This document shows, one piece after another, positions 7,445 to 18,827 of a stretch of 64,000 nucleotides of DNA. The notes under the pieces are model-generated. The model ran no database searches and was not told the DNA's origin. It was given only the letters and a program-made list of their open reading frames with translations. The translations under genes were made by a program, and so were the position numbers. Position 1 is the first letter of the stretch. The number at the start of each line of letters is the position of its first letter. Source of the DNA: Halohasta litorea (GTDB lineage: Archaea; Halobacteriota; Halobacteria; Halobacteriales; Haloferacaceae); NCBI RefSeq assembly GCF_024494645.1, contig NZ_JANHDJ010000002.1, positions 496,001 to 560,000 of the forward strand. The letters run 5' to 3'.

Positions 7445-8821
7445 CTACTCGGCGCGGGGTGACGGCTCGTCGACCGGATCGGCAGCCATCCGGCCAGCGA
7501 CAACTCCTGTGGCCAGCGAGACGCCGCTGGCGGATTTCTCGCGGGCGATGTCCGCGCCACCGACGACTGACCCGGCCGCATAGAGGTTTGCGAACTCGGG
7601 CTCACCAGCGGCATCGAGCGGCTGCATCGATTCGTTGGGTCGGACGCCGAACCGCGCGTAGGGGTGGTCGCCGAAGGCGTCGTCGACGAACCAGTCGTAC
7701 CGGTCGGCGGGCTGTGGAACGTGACAGTCGAACACCGGCTCCTGGACACGCTGGCGGTCGGAGTCGAGTCCCTTGCCGACGAAGCCACCGGTCGCCAACA
7801 CGAACTGTTCGGCGCTGTAGGGAACCTCCCGTCCCTTGTGGTCGACCCACACTGACTCGATGCGGTTCGGATCGTCCTCGCTCGTCTCGTAGCCGACGAC
7901 CGGGTTCCCCGTCTCGAACCGCACGCCTTCGGCATCGAGAGCGTCGTACAGTCGATCCTCAAGCCGGAGTCCGAGCAGGCTCGGCGGCCCCATCGGGATC
8001 TCGAAGACGTCGACGCCGAGTCGGTCGCCGAGGTCCGCCCGCACCTCGGTGGTGTGGTCGTCGCCGAGCAGCGCGGGAAAGCCGACCCGTTCGGCGTCGC
8101 CCAGGTGCGGCTCGACGGCTTCCACGAGTGCCTGGCGGGCGGGTGTGCCGTCGATCGGCTCGTCGTGATCGAGGGCCTTCGCGACGCGGGTGATCTTGGC
8201 GTCCGCGCCGAAGGCCTCGGCGAACTCGACTTCCGCGCCGGTCACATCGAACGGGACTCCGGCCAGTTCGAGGGAATCGGCGACCTGTCGGGCGTCGAAC
8301 TCGGTGAACGAGCGAACGCCGATTATCGTCATGGGTCGGCTATCGCTGGCGAGCCCGGCTGCGACCGCGCGCGGATACCGAGCGGTCGGTTTGACCGTCC
8401 CGCCGAAGGTCGGGACGAGCGCGTTTTTCTCGGTGTGACTGCCGAGATACATCTCGCCGGTCATTTCGTCGAACAACGCCAACCCCTCGCGGAGTGCATC
8501 CTCGCCGAGAATCGAGTAGGGATGAGTCGGCGGCAACGCCTCGATTTCGGTAAACGGGGTGACGAGTGGACCAGTGTACTCGCTGCGAGACGAACGAACG
8601 GTTCGGAAATCCTTCCGTCGCTGGGTGATCGTCTCGGAGGCGGCAGTATCGGTACGACTGGGGACGTAGCCGAGGCCATCGATCAGTCCCGAAGCCTGCC
8701 GAAGCGAGGTGCGCTTGTGGCAGACTAGCCGCACGTCAGCCCCTTCGCGGGCGGCCGCGATCGCACTCGTGATTCCGGCGAGGCCGCCGCCGACCACCAG
8801 GACCTCGCTTTCAATCGCCAT
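7445..8821 (-). CDS. glpB: GlpB-like anaerobic glycerol-3-phosphate dehydrogenase subunit B
   Basis: The frame can be extended upstream to 8884, but the ATG at 8821 ([20 protein letters not shown]) starts directly at the FAD-binding Rossmann motif and overlaps the glpA stop by 11 bases, so it is the better start. The 458-residue product has the GlpB pattern: [10 protein letters not shown] near residue 45 and a C-terminal FAD-binding segment around [28 protein letters not shown]. GlpB works with GlpA to oxidise sn-glycerol 3-phosphate to dihydroxyacetone phosphate. A GlpC subunit normally follows but is absent here. In this island it could act on another polyol phosphate. Confidence 0.88.
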
Positions 8822-10502
8822 GACGCCCCTCGATGGGTTCGGCTCGGCCCCCGTCGAAGGCCGTGTAGTCGACGCTCGGGCCACCGACCGCGGGGTCGGC
8901 GTCGTGGTTCATCGTCGTCGCGTGCAGCAGGTGGTTGAGCATCGCCTGGGAGAGCTGTCGGCCCCACAGCGTGTGTCGCTGCCCTTTCCAGCGTTCCTGA
9001 TACAGCTGGTCGAGGGCATCGCGGGCGGTGACGGCGTCGTGTTTCGGGTAGATTTCGGCGCTGATCCGATGCGAGCAGAATCCCCCCTGACAGTTGCCCA
9101 TCGACGCGCGGGTCCGGAGCCGAATCCCGTTGGGGTCGGCCCCAACGTCGTCGATCGCGTCCTGGATCTCCGCGCGAGTGACGGCCTCGCACTCACAGAC
9201 CGTGGGGTTCGGCTCGTCGGTGTCCAGGACTTCCGGAGCACGGTCCCCGAGCCGCTGTGTGCTCCGGCGAGCGATCGGCGAGCGTAGCCCGAAATCGTCC
9301 ATCCGGTCTTCGAGCACCGAAATATCGCTGCTGCCGGGCAGCGGCTCCTCGTGGGTTCGGCAGTCGGCGTCGACACCCAGCACCTCACAGACGTGGTCGG
9401 CTGCGGATTCGGCCATCTCCCGGTAGGTGGTGAGTTTGCCGCCGACGATCGAACTGAATCCCCCGATCCCGTCGCGCTCGGCGTGATCCAGGACGAAGTA
9501 GTTCCGCGTCACGTCGCCGGAATCTTTGGTCGAGTCGGGGTTGGGATCGTACAGCGGTCTGACGCCCCAGTAGGCCCGGATCATCCGCGCCTCGGAGACG
9601 ATCGGTACCATCTCGCTGGCGATGTCGATCATCATATCGACCTCCCACTGTTCTTCGGGGTAGTCGTCGGGGTCCTCGACCGGGTCGTCGTTGGCCCCGA
9701 GCAGGACCGTGGTTTCGTGCGGAATGATGGTGTCGCCCTCGCCTTTCGGCAGACAGCGGTTGATCACCGTGTCGATCTGCCGGACGTTGGTGACGACCAT
9801 CGCGCCCTTCGAGATCGCCATCTCAAGGTCGATATCGGCCATCTCCGCGATCTGGCTCGCCCACGCGCCGGTCGCGCTGACGACGTAGTCGGCGTCGATC
9901 GTTTCGGTCTGGCCCTCACAGCCCTCGCCGAGGTAGTTGGGTCCCTGTCGCTCTATTTCGACGCCGGTTACCTGGTCGTCTTCGACGCGGAGGTCGACCA
10001 CCTCGGCGTGGGTTTCGACGGTCGCGCCGTGATCGACGGCGTCGGCGGCGTTGGCCACACAGAGCCGGAAGGGATCGATCGCGCCGTCGGGGACCCGGAT
10101 CGCGCGCTCGACGCGTTTTGTGAGATGCGGCTCTTGGCGGCGGGCCTCTTCGCCGGAGATGACCTCTGTCGGGATGTCACACTCCGCACAGCCCTCCAAC
10201 TTCTGTTGGAAGTACTCGTCGGAGTCGCCCTCCAGCTGGACGAACAGTCCGCCGGTGTCCTCGATGCAGTGGCCCGCGATCCGGTGGAGAATTCGGTTTT
10301 CTTCCATACAGTCGATTGCGCTTTCCTGGTCGGAGACGGCGTAGCGGCCCCCGCTGTGGAGGTGGCCGTGGGTGCGGCCGGTAGTGCCCTCGGTGAGGTT
10401 CCCCCGCTCGACGAGGGTAACGTCGAACCCCCGCATGGCGAGATCACGGGCAGTGCCCGTGCCAGTGGCTCCGCCGCCGATAACGACGACTGTGTGTGTC
10501 AT
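8811..10502 (-). CDS. glpA: GlpA-like FAD-dependent glycerol-3-phosphate dehydrogenase subunit A
   Basis: The 563-residue protein begins with an FAD motif ([20 protein letters not shown], residues 5-24). It contains [17 protein letters not shown] and the DAO-family core to about residue 380. It ends with a BFD-like [2Fe-2S] domain whose ligands are Cys435, Cys437, Cys471 and Cys476 (CEC then CQGGFC). This is the GlpA layout. A TATA-like ttataatt near 10524-10531 lies about 25 bases before the ATG, and palindrome A copy 3 lies about 100 bp before the ATG. It is the first gene of a glpA-glpB unit. The physiological substrate may be glycerol 3-phosphate or another polyol phosphate of the island. 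Confidence 0.88.
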
Positions 10503-10523
10503 GGTGACTGGTTGGTGAGAATC

Positions 10524-10531
10524 GTTATAAT
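10524..10531 (-). promoter_or_regulatory. TATA box of glpA
   Basis: On the minus strand this is aattataa, about 22-29 bases upstream of the glpA ATG. That spacing fits a leaderless archaeal promoter. Confidence 0.5.
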
Positions 10532-10600
10532 TGTTGCGACCAGCCAGCAGCGGCTGTCAGCTACCGGTATTCGGGAACGGAACACGACCTTGGGATGTCC

Positions 10601-10617
10601 GTTCGGCATTTCCGAAC
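10601..10617. promoter_or_regulatory. Palindrome A, copy 3 (upstream of glpA)
   Basis: GTTCGGCATTTCCGAAC has perfect 5-bp outer arms and fits the island consensus. It lies about 70 bp upstream of the putative glpA TATA box, a position more typical of activation or distal control than of steric repression. Confidence 0.65.
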
Positions 10618-11169
10618 ACCGAGTGTGAACTGGGTGTCTTAGCGTCGACGAGGGGGCTGTGGAGACCCCACTAGTCGCGCTATTTAACCACCAATGCCAG
10701 TGTTACACCACGTTCAGGTTTCGGCATAGCGATACGTCGGTGTCCACGTGCCGAATAATACGACAAGTATCGGTATAGGAGTAACATTTATGATGTACAT
10801 CAATGATGATTATCCGTGGTTACGGAAACGAGCCGTCGCGAATCGTTTCCGACCCGGGTACGGTGGGCTCCGCAGACCGGCTGAGGGATCACCGTAGCAG
10901 TGATCGAGACATCGGTTTCCAGCAGCGGCACGGTAGTACAGCGGCTCCGATGTCTCTCACACTCCCGGGAGCGGGGTTCGCGCGCCGTACCACCAGTGCT
11001 GTCCGCTCGTCGGTCGGAGACACCCGTCCGGGCGAAGACAGCGACATCGCTCACAGCAACGGACTACCGATATGATACCGAAACAACGCGGATCGAACCG
11101 ACGTACAGTGACGAACCAGACCGTATCGAACGACCGGACAGCTCACCGCTTCAAGCGAGGTGAGCCACA
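10618..11169. other. Non-coding region upstream of the polytopic membrane protein; probable long structured leader
   Basis: No convincing ORF is present. A TATA-like agtaacatttatgatg near 10781-10796 could start a transcript with a leader of roughly 370 bases. Within it is a perfect dyad GATCAC-N7-GTGATC at 10887-10905, and the region ends in the ribosome-binding-site hairpin described separately. A second possible TATA element (ctatttaacc) is near 10679. Confidence 0.45.
11141..11165 (+). promoter_or_regulatory. Hairpin sequestering the Shine-Dalgarno site of the membrane protein gene
   Basis: GCTCACC at 11141-11147 pairs perfectly with GGTGAGC at 11159-11165. Inside, GCT (11148-11150) can pair with AGC (11154-11156) over a TCA loop, leaving GA as a bulge. 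The right arm contains most of GAGGTGA (11157-11163), the strong Shine-Dalgarno sequence located 6 bases before the ATG at 11170. In the folded RNA the ribosome site would be masked, suggesting translational control. Confidence 0.5.
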
Positions 11170-12123
11170 ATGGTAACCGAAGCCCTCGTCGACCCGGTTT
11201 TCTGGCTTGCCAGCTTTGCGGGGGGTGCCTTCGGTGCGGCCATCGGCGGCCTGCCTGCGTTCATCTTTACCGGGCTCGCAGTTATCGCGGGTGAGGCAGC
11301 CGTCATTGCGGGTGCCGATGGGAACATCACGAACCTCATCGGTTTCGGCCCGATCTTCGGCCCCCATATCAGCTTCGCGGGCGGTGCCGCAGGAGCCGCC
11401 TACGCAGCCAAACAGGGATATCTCGAAGACGGGAAAGATATCCTCTCGCCGCTCGGGACACACCACACCGACGTACTGTTAGTCGGTGGACTCTTCGGAC
11501 TGTTCGGCTTTGCCGGTACTGAACTACTCAACTATATTCAGTTCGGCACGGACAACATCGCCCTGATGGTGTTCGTCTCGGCGATCGTCCACCGTCTCGC
11601 CTTCGGCTACAGCATCATCGGCGAGGTCTACGGCAACAGCGTCTTCGATATGGGGCCGTTCGAACGCGGCGAGGAGAACGCACCCGGCATCTGGCTGCCG
11701 TGGCAGTACAAGTGGAGCGGCGTCACGATGATCGGTATCATCGGCGGCCTCGTCGGCGGCTTCACCTACATCGCAACGGGGAGCGTCGTCCTGATCTTCG
11801 GTATCAGCGCGGCGAGCCTCGTGATACTCAACGCCGGTCTCGACAACTTCCCCGTTACCCACCATATCACGCTCCCCGGCGCGGTCGGTGCGGTGAGCGC
11901 GGATATGACGGGATTCAGCCCGACGGTCGTAATGCTCGTCGCACTCGCCTTCGGTGTGTTCGGTGCCCTCTTCGGAGAGGTCATCGAACGCATCTTCTAC
12001 GCCCACGGCAAGACCCACGTCGACCCACCGGCGGCCGCGATTGCCGCCTCCGGACTGCTTGCGACGCTGTTGGTCGCCGTCGGTGTCTTCTCGGGGACCT
12101 TCTGGCCAACCTTCGGCCTCTGA
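11170..12123 (+). CDS. Polytopic membrane protein of the catabolic island, possible solute transporter
   Basis: The 317-residue protein is rich in Gly and Ala and has about seven to nine hydrophobic segments (for example 9-35, 37-55, 105-125, 130-150, 185-210, 220-245, 258-280 and 292-312). Conserved-looking polar loops include FGPIFGPHISFAGGA, NFPVTHHITLPGAVGAV and IVHRLAFGYS. The repeated glycine-rich helices and His-containing loops suggest a channel or carrier. A gene of unknown function with similar character accompanies glycerol catabolism genes in Haloferax (from memory, not verified). It is preceded by a strong but possibly masked Shine-Dalgarno site, unusual in this window. The substrate is unknown; a role in polyol or acid uptake is inference. 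Confidence 0.7.
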   Translation: MVTEALVDPVFWLASFAGGAFGAAIGGLPAFIFTGLAVIAGEAAVIAGADGNITNLIGFGPIFGPHISFAGGAAGAAYAAKQGYLEDGKDILSPLGTHHTDVLLVGGLFGLFGFAGTELLNYIQFGTDNIALMVFVSAIVHRLAFGYSIIGEVYGNSVFDMGPFERGEENAPGIWLPWQYKWSGVTMIGIIGGLVGGFTYIATGSVVLIFGISAASLVILNAGLDNFPVTHHITLPGAVGAVSADMTGFSPTVVMLVALAFGVFGALFGEVIERIFYAHGKTHVDPPAAAIAASGLLATLLVAVGVFSGTFWPTFGL

Positions 12124-12298: not shown

Positions 12299-13060
12299 AT
12301 GCTCCCGCTCGAACGAAGACAGGAGATCGTTAATTTGGTCAACGATAGTCAGGGCTGTTCGGTCGAGGAACTCGCCTCGGAGTTCGGCGTCTCGGAGACG
12401 ACGATCCGCCGTGATCTCCAGGAACTCAGCGAGCAGAACCTCATCGAGCGAACCCGCGGGGGTGCGATGCCGACGGTCAGCCGTGGCAAGGACTACGACA
12501 ACCGGAAGATCCACAACCTCGAAGCGAAAGCCGCCATCGGAGCCCGGGCCGTCGAAGAGATCCACCAAGAGGAGATCGTCATCTTCGACTGCGGGACGAC
12601 GACGTTCGAAATCGCAAAACAGGTCTCCACGGACCAGTCGTTCGTGCCGATGACGCCGATGCCGCTGATCGGGCGGGAGCTCGCCCAAAAGGGGTTCGAA
12701 ACCCACGTCACCGGCGGGCTGTACCGTCCGGAAAACTACACGGCAGTCGGGCCGTGGGCCGAGAAGTTCATCCAACAGACCAACGCCGACCTCTTTTTCC
12801 TCGGGACCGACGGGATCGACACCGACGGGCTCACGGCTCGAAACGTCCACCAACACCGGCTCAAGGAGCTCATGATCGAAAACGCGAAGCGGACCGTACT
12901 CGTCTCGGATCACACGAAGTTCGGTGACAACCATACGTTCCGCTTCGCCGAGCTCGACGCCGTCGACCTGTTTATAACGGATCGGGAGATTCCGGTGGAT
13001 ATCCGAGAAGCGTTTCGCTCCGCGGGCGTCGATCTCGTCGAAAACACTGATTCGGGCTAA
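12299..13060 (+). CDS. DeoR/GlpR-family transcriptional regulator
   Basis: This 253-residue protein has an N-terminal DeoR helix-turn-helix (LPLERRQEIVNLVN, then VEELASEFGVSETTIRRDLQELSEQNLIERTRGGA, residues 2-57). A DeoR-C sugar-phosphate sensing domain follows, with FDCGTTTFEIAKQ near residue 97, DLFFLGTDGID near 164 and KRTVLVSDHTKFG near 200. DeoR-type proteins in haloarchaea, such as GlpR of Haloferax, repress sugar metabolism genes and respond to phosphorylated intermediates. It lies between the membrane protein and the FGGY kinase and probably controls part of the island. The stop codon is inside the first copy of a 27-bp tandem duplication. Confidence 0.85.
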   Translation: MLPLERRQEIVNLVNDSQGCSVEELASEFGVSETTIRRDLQELSEQNLIERTRGGAMPTVSRGKDYDNRKIHNLEAKAAIGARAVEEIHQEEIVIFDCGTTTFEIAKQVSTDQSFVPMTPMPLIGRELAQKGFETHVTGGLYRPENYTAVGPWAEKFIQQTNADLFFLGTDGIDTDGLTARNVHQHRLKELMIENAKRTVLVSDHTKFGDNHTFRFAELDAVDLFITDREIPVDIREAFRSAGVDLVENTDSG

Positions 13061-13088
13061 TTCGTCGAAAACACTGATTCGGGCTAAT
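13035..13088. repeat. 27-bp perfect tandem duplication across the DeoR gene stop codon
   Basis: Bases 13035-13061 are repeated exactly at 13062-13088. The first copy contains the last eight codons and TAA of the DeoR gene, so the protein is unaffected and the second copy is untranslated. This looks like a recent slippage or replication duplication. Confidence 0.85.
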
Positions 13089-16424: not shown

Positions 16425-17078
16425 ATGACACAAGACCTCACACTACAGGAAGAACGGACCGCAGTAAGTGACCTCGGTCGACAGATGCTCGACCAGGGAC
16501 TGACGACCGGTACAGGCGGCAACATCAGCGCGCGTAACGGTGATCGAGTCGCGATCAGCCCCTCGGGAATGCCCTACGACGAGATCGACCCCGAAGACGT
16601 CCCGATCGTCGATCTCAACGGGAACCATCTCGAAGGCGACCGCAAGCCATCCAGCGAGTTCCGAATGCACACCGACGTCATCCGCGAACGCGACGATGTC
16701 GGCGGTGTCGTTCACACCCACTCGCCGTACGCCAGCACGTTCGCCAGCCTCGGTGAGCCGATTCCGGCCTCGCACTATCTGATCGCGTTTATCGGCAACA
16801 AAATCCCAGTGGCACCCTACGAGACGTATGGCACCGCCGAGCTCGCCGAGGCCGCCCTCGACGCCCTCGGCGAGGAGTACAACGCCTGTCTGCTGGAACA
16901 ACACGGTGTGCTGGCGGTCGGGGATTCGGTCGAAGCGGCCTTCGAGGTCGCGCTGATGGTCGAATACTGCGCCCGCATCCACTATCAGGCAGTGAGTATC
17001 GGTGAGCCGAATATCGTCCCCGACGAGGAGATCGAGACGCTGCTCGACCGCTTCGAGGACTACGGCCAGGACCACTAA
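16425..17078 (+). CDS. Class II aldolase (fuculose-phosphate aldolase / OtnC type), single domain
   Basis: The frame extends to a GTG at 16380, but the ATG at 16425 has a GGAGA-like site just upstream and matches the start of the paralogous domains. The 217-residue protein has the phosphate loop GTGGNIS near residue 29, catalytic Glu78 (SSEFRMH), zinc ligands His97 and His99 (VVHTHSPYAS) and His160 (LLEQHGVLAVG). Family members cleave ketose 1-phosphates to dihydroxyacetone phosphate and an aldehyde, epimerise pentulose phosphates, or decarboxylate 3-oxo-tetronate 4-phosphates. It faces the fused double-aldolase gene tail to tail and is closely similar to both of its domains. Confidence 0.85.
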   Translation: MTQDLTLQEERTAVSDLGRQMLDQGLTTGTGGNISARNGDRVAISPSGMPYDEIDPEDVPIVDLNGNHLEGDRKPSSEFRMHTDVIRERDDVGGVVHTHSPYASTFASLGEPIPASHYLIAFIGNKIPVAPYETYGTAELAEAALDALGEEYNACLLEQHGVLAVGDSVEAAFEVALMVEYCARIHYQAVSIGEPNIVPDEEIETLLDRFEDYGQDH

Positions 17079-17483: not shown

Positions 17484-18827
17484 TCAGTGGTCCTGACCGT
17501 AATCGGCGAACCGCTCCAGGAGGGTGTCGATTTCGGCGTCGGCGAGCAGATTGGGCTCGCCGATGTTGCGCGCCTGGTAGTGGATTCTCGCGCAGTATTC
17601 GACCATCAGTGCCACCTCAAAGGCTTCCTCGACGCTGTCGCCGACCGCCAGCACGCCGTGGTTCTCTAAGAGGCAAGCGTTGTACTCTTCGCCGAGGGCG
17701 TCGAGGGCGACCTCGGCGAGTTCGGCCGTCCCGTAGGTCTCGTAGGGGGCGACCGGGATCTGATCGCCCGCGAAGGCGATGAGGTAGTGGGAGGCCTCGA
17801 TGGGCTCGTTGAGGCTGGCGAAGGCGCTGGCATAGGGCGAATGGTTGTGGACGACCGCGCCCACGTCCTCGCGCTCCCGGAGGATGTCGGTGTGCATCCG
17901 GAACTCGCTGGAGGGGTCCCGTTTCCCGGCGACGTGTTCGCCGTTGAGGTCGACGACAGACACGTCCTCGGTCTCGATTTCGTCGTAGGGCATTCCCGAG
18001 GGGCTGATCGCCACGAGATCGCCGTTCTGGGAGCTGATGTTGCCCCCGGTGCCCTCGGTGAGGCCTTGGTGGAGCATCTTCCGGCCGAACTCGCTGACGG
18101 CCTTGCGGTTGGCCCGCAGCTCGGTGAGTCGGTCGGCCGACACGCTCACACCGGAATCCGGCTCGGCTCCCTCGTCGTCGGCCGACTGGGTTTGGCCGTA
18201 GTCGGCGAAGCGCTCCAGGAGGGTGTCGATTTCGGCGTCGTCTAAGAGACTCGGCTCGCCGATCGACAGGGCGTGGTAGTGGATGCGGGCGCAGTATTCG
18301 ACCATCAGCGCGACCTCGTAGGCCGCCTCCGCGGTCGCGCCCGTCGCCAGGACGCCGTGGTTCTCTAAGAGACAGGCGTTGTACTCCTCGCCGAGGGCAT
18401 CGAGGGCGACCTCGGCGAGTTCGGCCGTCCCGTAGGTTTCGTAGGGGGCAACCGGGATCTCGTCGCCGATAAAGGCGATGAGGTAATGAGAGGGGCCGAC
18501 CGCCTCGCCGATGCTGGCGAAGGTGCTGGCATACGGCGAGTGAGTGTGGACGACCGCGCCCACGTCCTCGCGCTCCCGGAGAACGTCGGTGTGCATCCGG
18601 AACTCGCTGGAGGGTTTGCGGTCGCCTTCGAGCTGCGTGCCGTCGACGTCGACGATCGCCACGTCCTCGGGCTCGATTTCGTCGTAGGCCATTCCAGAGG
18701 GGCTGATCGCCACGTTCCCGTCGTCGGTTTTCACACTAATATTTCCGCCAGTACCTTTGGTGAGGCCGTCGGCGAGCATTCGGCGGCCGAGCTCACTGAC
18801 TACCTGCTGGGCAGATGGGTCTGTCAT
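17484..18827 (-). CDS. Tandem-fused double class II aldolase, 447 aa
   Basis: Two complete class II aldolase domains (residues about 1-213 and 236-447) are joined by an acidic linker (QSADDEGAEPDSGVSVSAD). Domain 1 has GTGGNIS, SSEFRMH, VVHTHSPYAS and LLENHGVLATG. Domain 2 has the same elements with VVHNHSPYAS and LLENHGVLAVG. All zinc-ligand His and the catalytic Glu are therefore kept in both, so neither half is an obvious pseudo-domain. Domain 2 ends like the single-domain aldolase (DYGQDH). Class II aldolases are normally homotetramers of about 215-residue chains, so a fused dimer could assemble as two chains. It is divergent from the FGGY kinase gene at 18992. Confidence 0.85.
   Translation of the reverse strand: MTDPSAQQVVSELGRRMLADGLTKGTGGNISVKTDDGNVAISPSGMAYDEIEPEDVAIVDVDGTQLEGDRKPSSEFRMHTDVLREREDVGAVVHTHSPYASTFASIGEAVGPSHYLIAFIGDEIPVAPYETYGTAELAEVALDALGEEYNACLLENHGVLATGATAEAAYEVALMVEYCARIHYHALSIGEPSLLDDAEIDTLLERFADYGQTQSADDEGAEPDSGVSVSADRLTELRANRKAVSEFGRKMLHQGLTEGTGGNISSQNGDLVAISPSGMPYDEIETEDVSVVDLNGEHVAGKRDPSSEFRMHTDILREREDVGAVVHNHSPYASAFASLNEPIEASHYLIAFAGDQIPVAPYETYGTAELAEVALDALGEEYNACLLENHGVLAVGDSVEEAFEVALMVEYCARIHYQARNIGEPNLLADAEIDTLLERFADYGQDH

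Follow-up and report, generated by a model that had tools for sequence, protein, structure and literature searches.

A long leader before a membrane protein gene of Halohasta litorea and its relation to the glycerol kinase leaders of haloarchaea

The membrane protein gene and its leader

The window analysed here is a stretch of 64,000 nucleotides from Halohasta litorea (contig NZ_JANHDJ010000002.1, positions 496,001 to 560,000 of the forward strand), and our subject is the DNA in front of a gene for a 317-aa membrane protein. No Pfam or NCBIfam family covers this protein. Relatives of it are found in 134 of 170 genomes from the family; its own genome has them at four places (five matches, two of which are pieces of one gene). 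The glycerol kinase gene (glpK) ends at most 120 nt upstream in 30 of the 35 distinct relatives that have enough upstream DNA. The window gene stands without glpK upstream; it is divergent from GlpA- and GlpB-like genes and is followed by the gene of a GlpR-type regulator. The features are as follows.

8811-10502, minus strand: gene for a GlpA-like glycerol-3-phosphate dehydrogenase subunit, the divergent neighbour (TIGR03377, 691 bits against a cut-off of 553)
10787-10794, plus strand: TATA box TTTATGAT, from an alignment with Halohasta and Halonotius glpK promoters
10791-10802, either strand: 12-bp perfect palindrome TGATGTACATCA between the TATA box and the predicted start, read in the sequence
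10808-10813, plus strand: degenerate GATTAT, aligned where glpK promoters have the conserved GTTTAY
10818 (10814-10818 plausible), plus strand: predicted transcript start, from a pyrimidine-purine step present in 65 of 66 glpK leaders
10823-10851, plus strand: 5' hairpin CGGAAACGA / TCGTTTCCG, from folding and compensatory changes
10855-11140, plus strand: rest of the leader, with no similar DNA found in relatives and no coding signal
10887-10905, plus strand: second dyad GATCAC/GTGATC, which differs from the fold predicted in isolation
11141-11165, plus strand: hairpin with the Shine-Dalgarno (SD) sequence GAGGTGA (11157-11163), from folding; no counterpart in 35 relatives
11170-12123, plus strand: membrane protein gene, 317 aa, paralogue of the gene that follows glpK in relatives
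12299-13060, plus strand: gene for a GlpR-type regulator (DeoR family), downstream (NF041397, 358 bits against a cut-off of 300)

The preliminary description of this DNA proposed that the membrane protein gene has a long structured leader. Our analysis supports this, because there is a TATA-like word at 10787 and the stretch 10851-11140 contains not one of the six AT-rich words looked for, but the conserved part lies at the 5' end of the leader (10818-10854) and not over the SD sequence. The leader would be about 352 nt long if transcription starts near 10818; the leaderless ORFs, which are few (6 of 160), point to a start 27-28 nt from the TATA box. In Haloferax volcanii 72% of the protein-coding transcripts are leaderless, and translational control through structured leaders was judged not typical for haloarchaea, according to the available text of PMC4983044.

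Coding upstream ORFs at 10803-11075 and 10900-11163 were rejected, their GC being flat over the codon positions, and a remnant of glpK in the leader was rejected with the best glpK similarity at E 0.61. Rfam gave no match at E≤1 for 10500-11300. None of the 7 promoter homologues in the alignment has the palindrome TGATGTACATCA. The second dyad at 10887-10905, also pointed out earlier, does exist, but the predicted fold of this region in isolation is an overlapping alternative and not GATCAC/GTGATC.

Several other features of the window were seen in passing. An inverted repeat, GTTCGGCATTTCCGAAC, lies at 10601-10617, about 100 bp before the GlpA-like gene; together with the words TTCGGCA and TGCCGAA found at 10720 and 10749, it could mark a regulator site in the DNA that separates the divergent genes. 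At 13035-13088 the stop codon of the GlpR-type gene is spanned by a 27-bp tandem repeat (by eye, two copies of TCGTCGAAAACACTGATTCGGGCTAAT). Further on, a 447-aa ORF at 17484-18827 seems by eye to contain a tandem pair of class II aldolase domains, and another aldolase gene lies at 16425-17075.

The 5' hairpin and the glpK leader element

When the 667-bp upstream region was searched in 167 genomes, only 10750-10833 matched elsewhere (E≤0.001). The matches fall in 6 genomes including its own, at an orphan place in the own genome (L064) and in the regions upstream of glpK in Halohasta and Halonotius. The alignment takes in the promoter first and then extends into an inverted repeat, the sequence of which varies by place while its pairing is retained. 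In the window copy the stem is perfect over 9 bp and is extended by GGT at 10818-10820 pairing with ACC at 10852-10854. Folded as 10818-10855 this hairpin reaches -16.3 kcal/mol (z -3.07, none of 200 shuffles as good), and within 10814-10862 it has a z of -2.31 (4 of 200 shuffles); in the 50-nt stretch from the predicted start it is no better than simple shuffles (z -0.97, p 0.17). Judged by these predicted folds, the hairpin at 10818-10855 appears to be a better case than the one over the SD sequence.

Eight direct homologues were compared, namely the window copy, L064, the L008 copy before another paralogue, and five glpK leaders. Paired cells make up 88.9% of the total, and 9 cells in five of the nine pairs have both sides changed. 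With stems that were taken from the very sequences tested, the covariation score of 0.381 exceeds all 500 shuffles, and it falls to 0.198 or 0.087 when the partner is slid by one position; the pair count is reached by 6 and the pair types by 64 of the 500 shuffles. The window and L064 copies retain the TATA spacing and the hairpin without GTTTAY or TAAA. In the window the first T of the TATA box lies 21 nt from the GTTTAY position (10787 to 10808), as in 67 of 71 glpK leaders, GATTAT stands at that position and the copy has no TAAA, which would be expected 26 or 27 nt on. The L008 copy keeps TATA and hairpin with 2 nt fewer between them.

The orphan promoter and hairpin at L064 (G000:C8, about 17930-18007, minus strand) is 81% identical to that of the window over 78 bp. 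It lies directly after a 338-aa ORF that resembles, by eye, a transporter binding protein, with the next coding-like ORF of at least 90 aa on its strand about 1 kb away, and is perhaps a relic or a small RNA.

Haloarchaeal glpK leaders share an arrangement TATA-21-GTTTAY-26-TAAA together with a covarying hairpin. Among leaders collected from 110 places in haloarchaea, TTTA occurs 18-24 nt before NTTTAY in 71, at a distance of 21 nt in 67 of these. TAAA, which was allowed 6-49 nt further on in the 71 leaders, is found at 26 nt in 63; 4 leaders have it at 27 nt, one has it at 30 nt, and no other distance occurs. A separate count places it at 26 nt in 57 of 62 leaders. Both half-sites are mostly STTTAY. 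The spaced motif is missing from 44 of the 110 leaders, and in Halohasta the GTTTAY-TAAA spacing is 27, outside the exact spaced pattern. That pattern is present in 159 of 391 genomes, with one site each among the matches listed, and some of these matches are due to chance given the roughly 20 hits of a reversed control. The search pattern gave 82 distinct cores with a preset spacing of 26 or 27 nt, so the claim about spacing rests on the 6-49 nt count. Removal of near duplicates at 88% identity reduced the cores to 66. In all of these a purine stands 10 nt into the GTTTAY block, and in 65 the base before it is a pyrimidine.

Eight glpK leaders of genus g9 (L074, L076, L081, L082, L086, L087, L089 and L094) look different. 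In five of them GTTTGT replaces GTTTAC, and no TAAA was seen, yet they have a tight hairpin such as GGACTCTC/GAGAGTTC (L089 folded).

Of the 110 leaders, 66 were chosen by the motif words alone, with the stem no criterion, and in them the helix bracketing TAAA scores a mean z of 1.97 over shuffles, with p≤0.05 in 36. In the 53 of 82 leaders with a clear helix, TAAA is separated from the two arms of the stem by 5.6 (sd 1.8) and 3.6 (sd 2.5) nt. Two structure-free alignments were made, A1 with the 66 cores left after removal of near duplicates and A2 with 62 of these, from which L060 and L067 (Halonotius and Halohasta) were held out for testing and L103 and L186 were also omitted. In both, the covariation score exceeds that of every one of 500 shuffles and of the six slid versions; the shuffle counts overstate independence because the leaders share descent. 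Only 61% (66 leaders) and 57% (62 leaders) of the cells pair, and the doubly changed pairs are not above shuffles, 377 and 422 of 500 of which reach the count. RNAalifold predicted no structure on A1, in which the registers of the 3' arm are mixed among sequences, and the helices tabulated for L079, L080 and L088 are doubtful.

A first model, R1, was dropped for searching as too weak (0.5 bits per position). With strict filters and 12 scored candidates per genome, the covariance model R2 gave one match each in 201 of 391 genomes, from 57 of 86 genera, and no match in 190. The position of glpK was compared for 92 of the 201 matches, and 89 of these lie 5-56 nt before the gene; of the three others, the one examined (G039) is just before a second glpK. 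R2 was trained without Halohasta and Halonotius and scores the held-out glpK leaders of both at 42.8-45.6 bits. A scan of the phylum, counted irrespective of glpK content, gave matches in 10 of 196 genomes, all of them its own, of the same family or of the same order, and Rfam had no match at E≤1 for 13 glpK loci. Applied to the window copy, R2 reaches 12.4 bits (E 0.78) with a match that stops at 10828 and skips most of the hairpin. The L008 place (L066) scores a weak 13.2 bits and the L064 copy was not found by the search, which points to the three copies being derived relatives of the glpK leader element, not members of it by this model.

By eye, the glpK leaders L060 and L067-L069 (Halohasta, Halonotius) have a second, C/G-rich hairpin (GGGGG...CCCCC) after the first and before the start codon.

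Proposed DNA and RNA signals at the glpK promoter

The reading that we favour, with a probability of about 0.55, is that the window leader descends from the haloarchaeal glpK promoter and leader, in which a 5' RNA hairpin for control at the mRNA level overlaps a DNA site locked to the promoter. In many haloarchaea glpK has an element that combines TATA, GTTTAY and TAAA at fixed distances with a hairpin that brackets TAAA. TAAA stands at a set distance from GTTTAY but at varying distances from the stem, so two overlapping signals are suggested, a DNA inverted repeat and a 5' RNA hairpin. The stretch GTTTAY...RTAAA is probably a separate DNA site round the start point, since the position of TAAA follows the promoter rather than the stem; it is likely an operator and would have been lost in the window copy. 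The hairpin varies in sequence but tends to preserve its pairing, an indication that it acts as RNA, and three copies without the DNA half-sites kept a hairpin, which supports the split into DNA and RNA signals.

The location of the start point is central to this reading. Transcription would begin about 28-31 nt after TATA, as the pyrimidine-purine step 31 nt after the TATA box is a plausible start point in glpK leaders, with another 3 nt earlier. From either start GTTTAY would be untranscribed and the hairpin would begin a few bases from the predicted 5' end, which places it at the very 5' end of the mRNA. There it would most likely set the life of the glycerol-gene mRNA or the access of ribosomes to it. 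An RNA pseudoknot of GTTTAC with a loop GTAAAC was rejected because GTTTAY precedes the predicted start; its outer positions also lack covariation (by eye, G facing G and C facing A are common).

It is conceivable, although we put this forward tentatively, that a dedicated cis-regulatory RNA lies at the 5' end of haloarchaeal glpK mRNA, where its loop would be read by a protein or a metabolite, and that it was copied with the promoter onto other genes including that of the window.

An unlikely alternative is that the whole element is a DNA regulatory site, in which the inverted repeat GTTTAY-N19-RTAAA is bound by a regulator across the start point, with no RNA function for the hairpin. The spacing would fit this, being fixed relative to TATA (21 nt in 67 of 71) and from one half-site to the other (26 nt in 63, 27 nt in 4) but not relative to the stem, as would the palindromic half-sites and the presence of one strong site in each matching genome. 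A fixed DNA site, however, leaves unexplained the stem arms, which vary between species and copies with compensatory changes, and the hairpin persists in the three copies without both half-sites. Additionally, 25 bp between the centres is an unusual distance for a single dimer. As for the regulator, the comparison with Haloferax GlpR operators is invited by the GlpR-type gene that adjoins the membrane gene in the window. The targets of Haloferax GlpR are fructose and glucose genes, and the GTTTAY-N19-RTAAA site is unlike what we take to be its motif. A protein-binding site, which was among the roles suggested at the outset, is a possible candidate chiefly at the promoter end of the leader.

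Still more doubtful is that the leader is a relic, with glpK lost or never copied, the promoter kept and neither hairpin of any consequence. The position of glpK just upstream in 30 of 35 relatives could be taken this way, as could the loss of GTTTAY and TAAA from the leader, most of which is unconserved. Set against this are a 5' stem that is perfect over 9 bp with compensatory changes relative to L064 and L008, and a leader that holds no recognisable remnant of glpK.

The Shine-Dalgarno hairpin and control of the glycerol genes

The feature that first drew attention to this leader was its masked ribosome-binding site, and the pairing itself is as it had been read. GCTCACC (11141-11147) pairs with GGTGAGC (11159-11165) over a perfect 7 bp with three inner pairs, both in the sequence and when folded. 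GAGGTGA sits in the 3' part of the hairpin, whose end is 4 bases before the ATG at 11170. In 40 nt the fold has -13.3 kcal/mol and a z of -1.8 (12 of 200 shuffles as good), and in longer context the z is -2.2 for 66 nt (4 of 200) and -1.2 for 101 nt (21 of 200). We compared it to 64 coding-like ORFs of the same genome, taken from the window, L066 and L067. Six of these have a start region as stable and two have a 7-bp perfect inverted repeat in -40..0, the window gene included in both counts; of the two it is the window gene that has an SD-like sequence. The exact dyad with a loop of 1-20 nt occurs at 4 places genome-wide against 2 for a reversed control. The structured start is real and somewhat unusual, but with z between -1.2 and -2.2 and 6 of 64 ORFs equally stable it is not extreme.

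Conservation of this hairpin was looked for in the 35 relatives of the membrane gene, the start codons of which were picked by script, with several GTG choices without a nearby stop being doubtful. None of the 35 has a 7-bp perfect inverted repeat before the start codon, which rules the hairpin out as a conserved element, and the stem is missing even in L008, the 85% paralogue from the same genome. Equal predicted stability of the start region is reached through other pairings in 8 of the 35. GGTGA within the last 24 nt before the start was likewise read in 8 of the 35 with the perfect stem in none, so the SD sequence of the window may be old and its hairpin newer. One hypothesis is that the hairpin at 11141-11165 arose later, in this copy alone, and reduces the translation of the membrane protein.

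That this hairpin is the expression platform of a riboswitch or an RNA thermometer opening on a signal, the metabolite- or temperature-responsive element of the preliminary description, is very unlikely: the whole SD is base-paired in a hairpin of -13.3 kcal/mol and a synthetic riboswitch functions in Haloferax volcanii according to the available text of PMC8241225, but the stem is in none of 35 relatives nor in the same-genome paralogue L008, no Rfam family matches, and 6 of 64 ORFs of the genome, window gene included, are as stable. Bacterial riboswitches and thermometers of the SD-masking type do cover the SD as the hairpin at 11141-11165 does; the window hairpin differs in having no homologous structure in the 35 relatives and no Rfam match. 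The preliminary interpretation is partly supported, with the emphasis moving away from the SD hairpin: a conserved glycerol-gene element of haloarchaea is found at the leader's 5' end, and the window has a degenerate copy of it.

There are some known systems with which the 5' hairpin can be compared. The leader of glpD in Bacillus holds the target of the GlpP antiterminator, and this is a structured leader in glycerol catabolism as here, in a different domain of life. A closer setting is that of HVO_0721 (hp) in Haloferax volcanii, whose transcript has a stem-loop in the 5'-UTR; altering its stability altered translation (PMC2636863, as far as its available text goes). Like the glycerol-gene hairpin it sits in a haloarchaeal leader, and it is a precedent for translation control. 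It differs in being one gene of one species, with a stem-loop of -7.4 kcal/mol and no link to glycerol named in that text, and the two are likened here by description. Among the open-licence literature matches listed there was no glpK leader element in haloarchaea, and a prior description elsewhere is possible.

If the favoured reading is true, a covarying 5' hairpin fixed to the glpK promoter, and matched by the model in 57 of 86 genera, would amount to a leader RNA that is conserved broadly across the class. As an element of glycerol kinase, it would concern a main carbon pathway of hypersaline waters.
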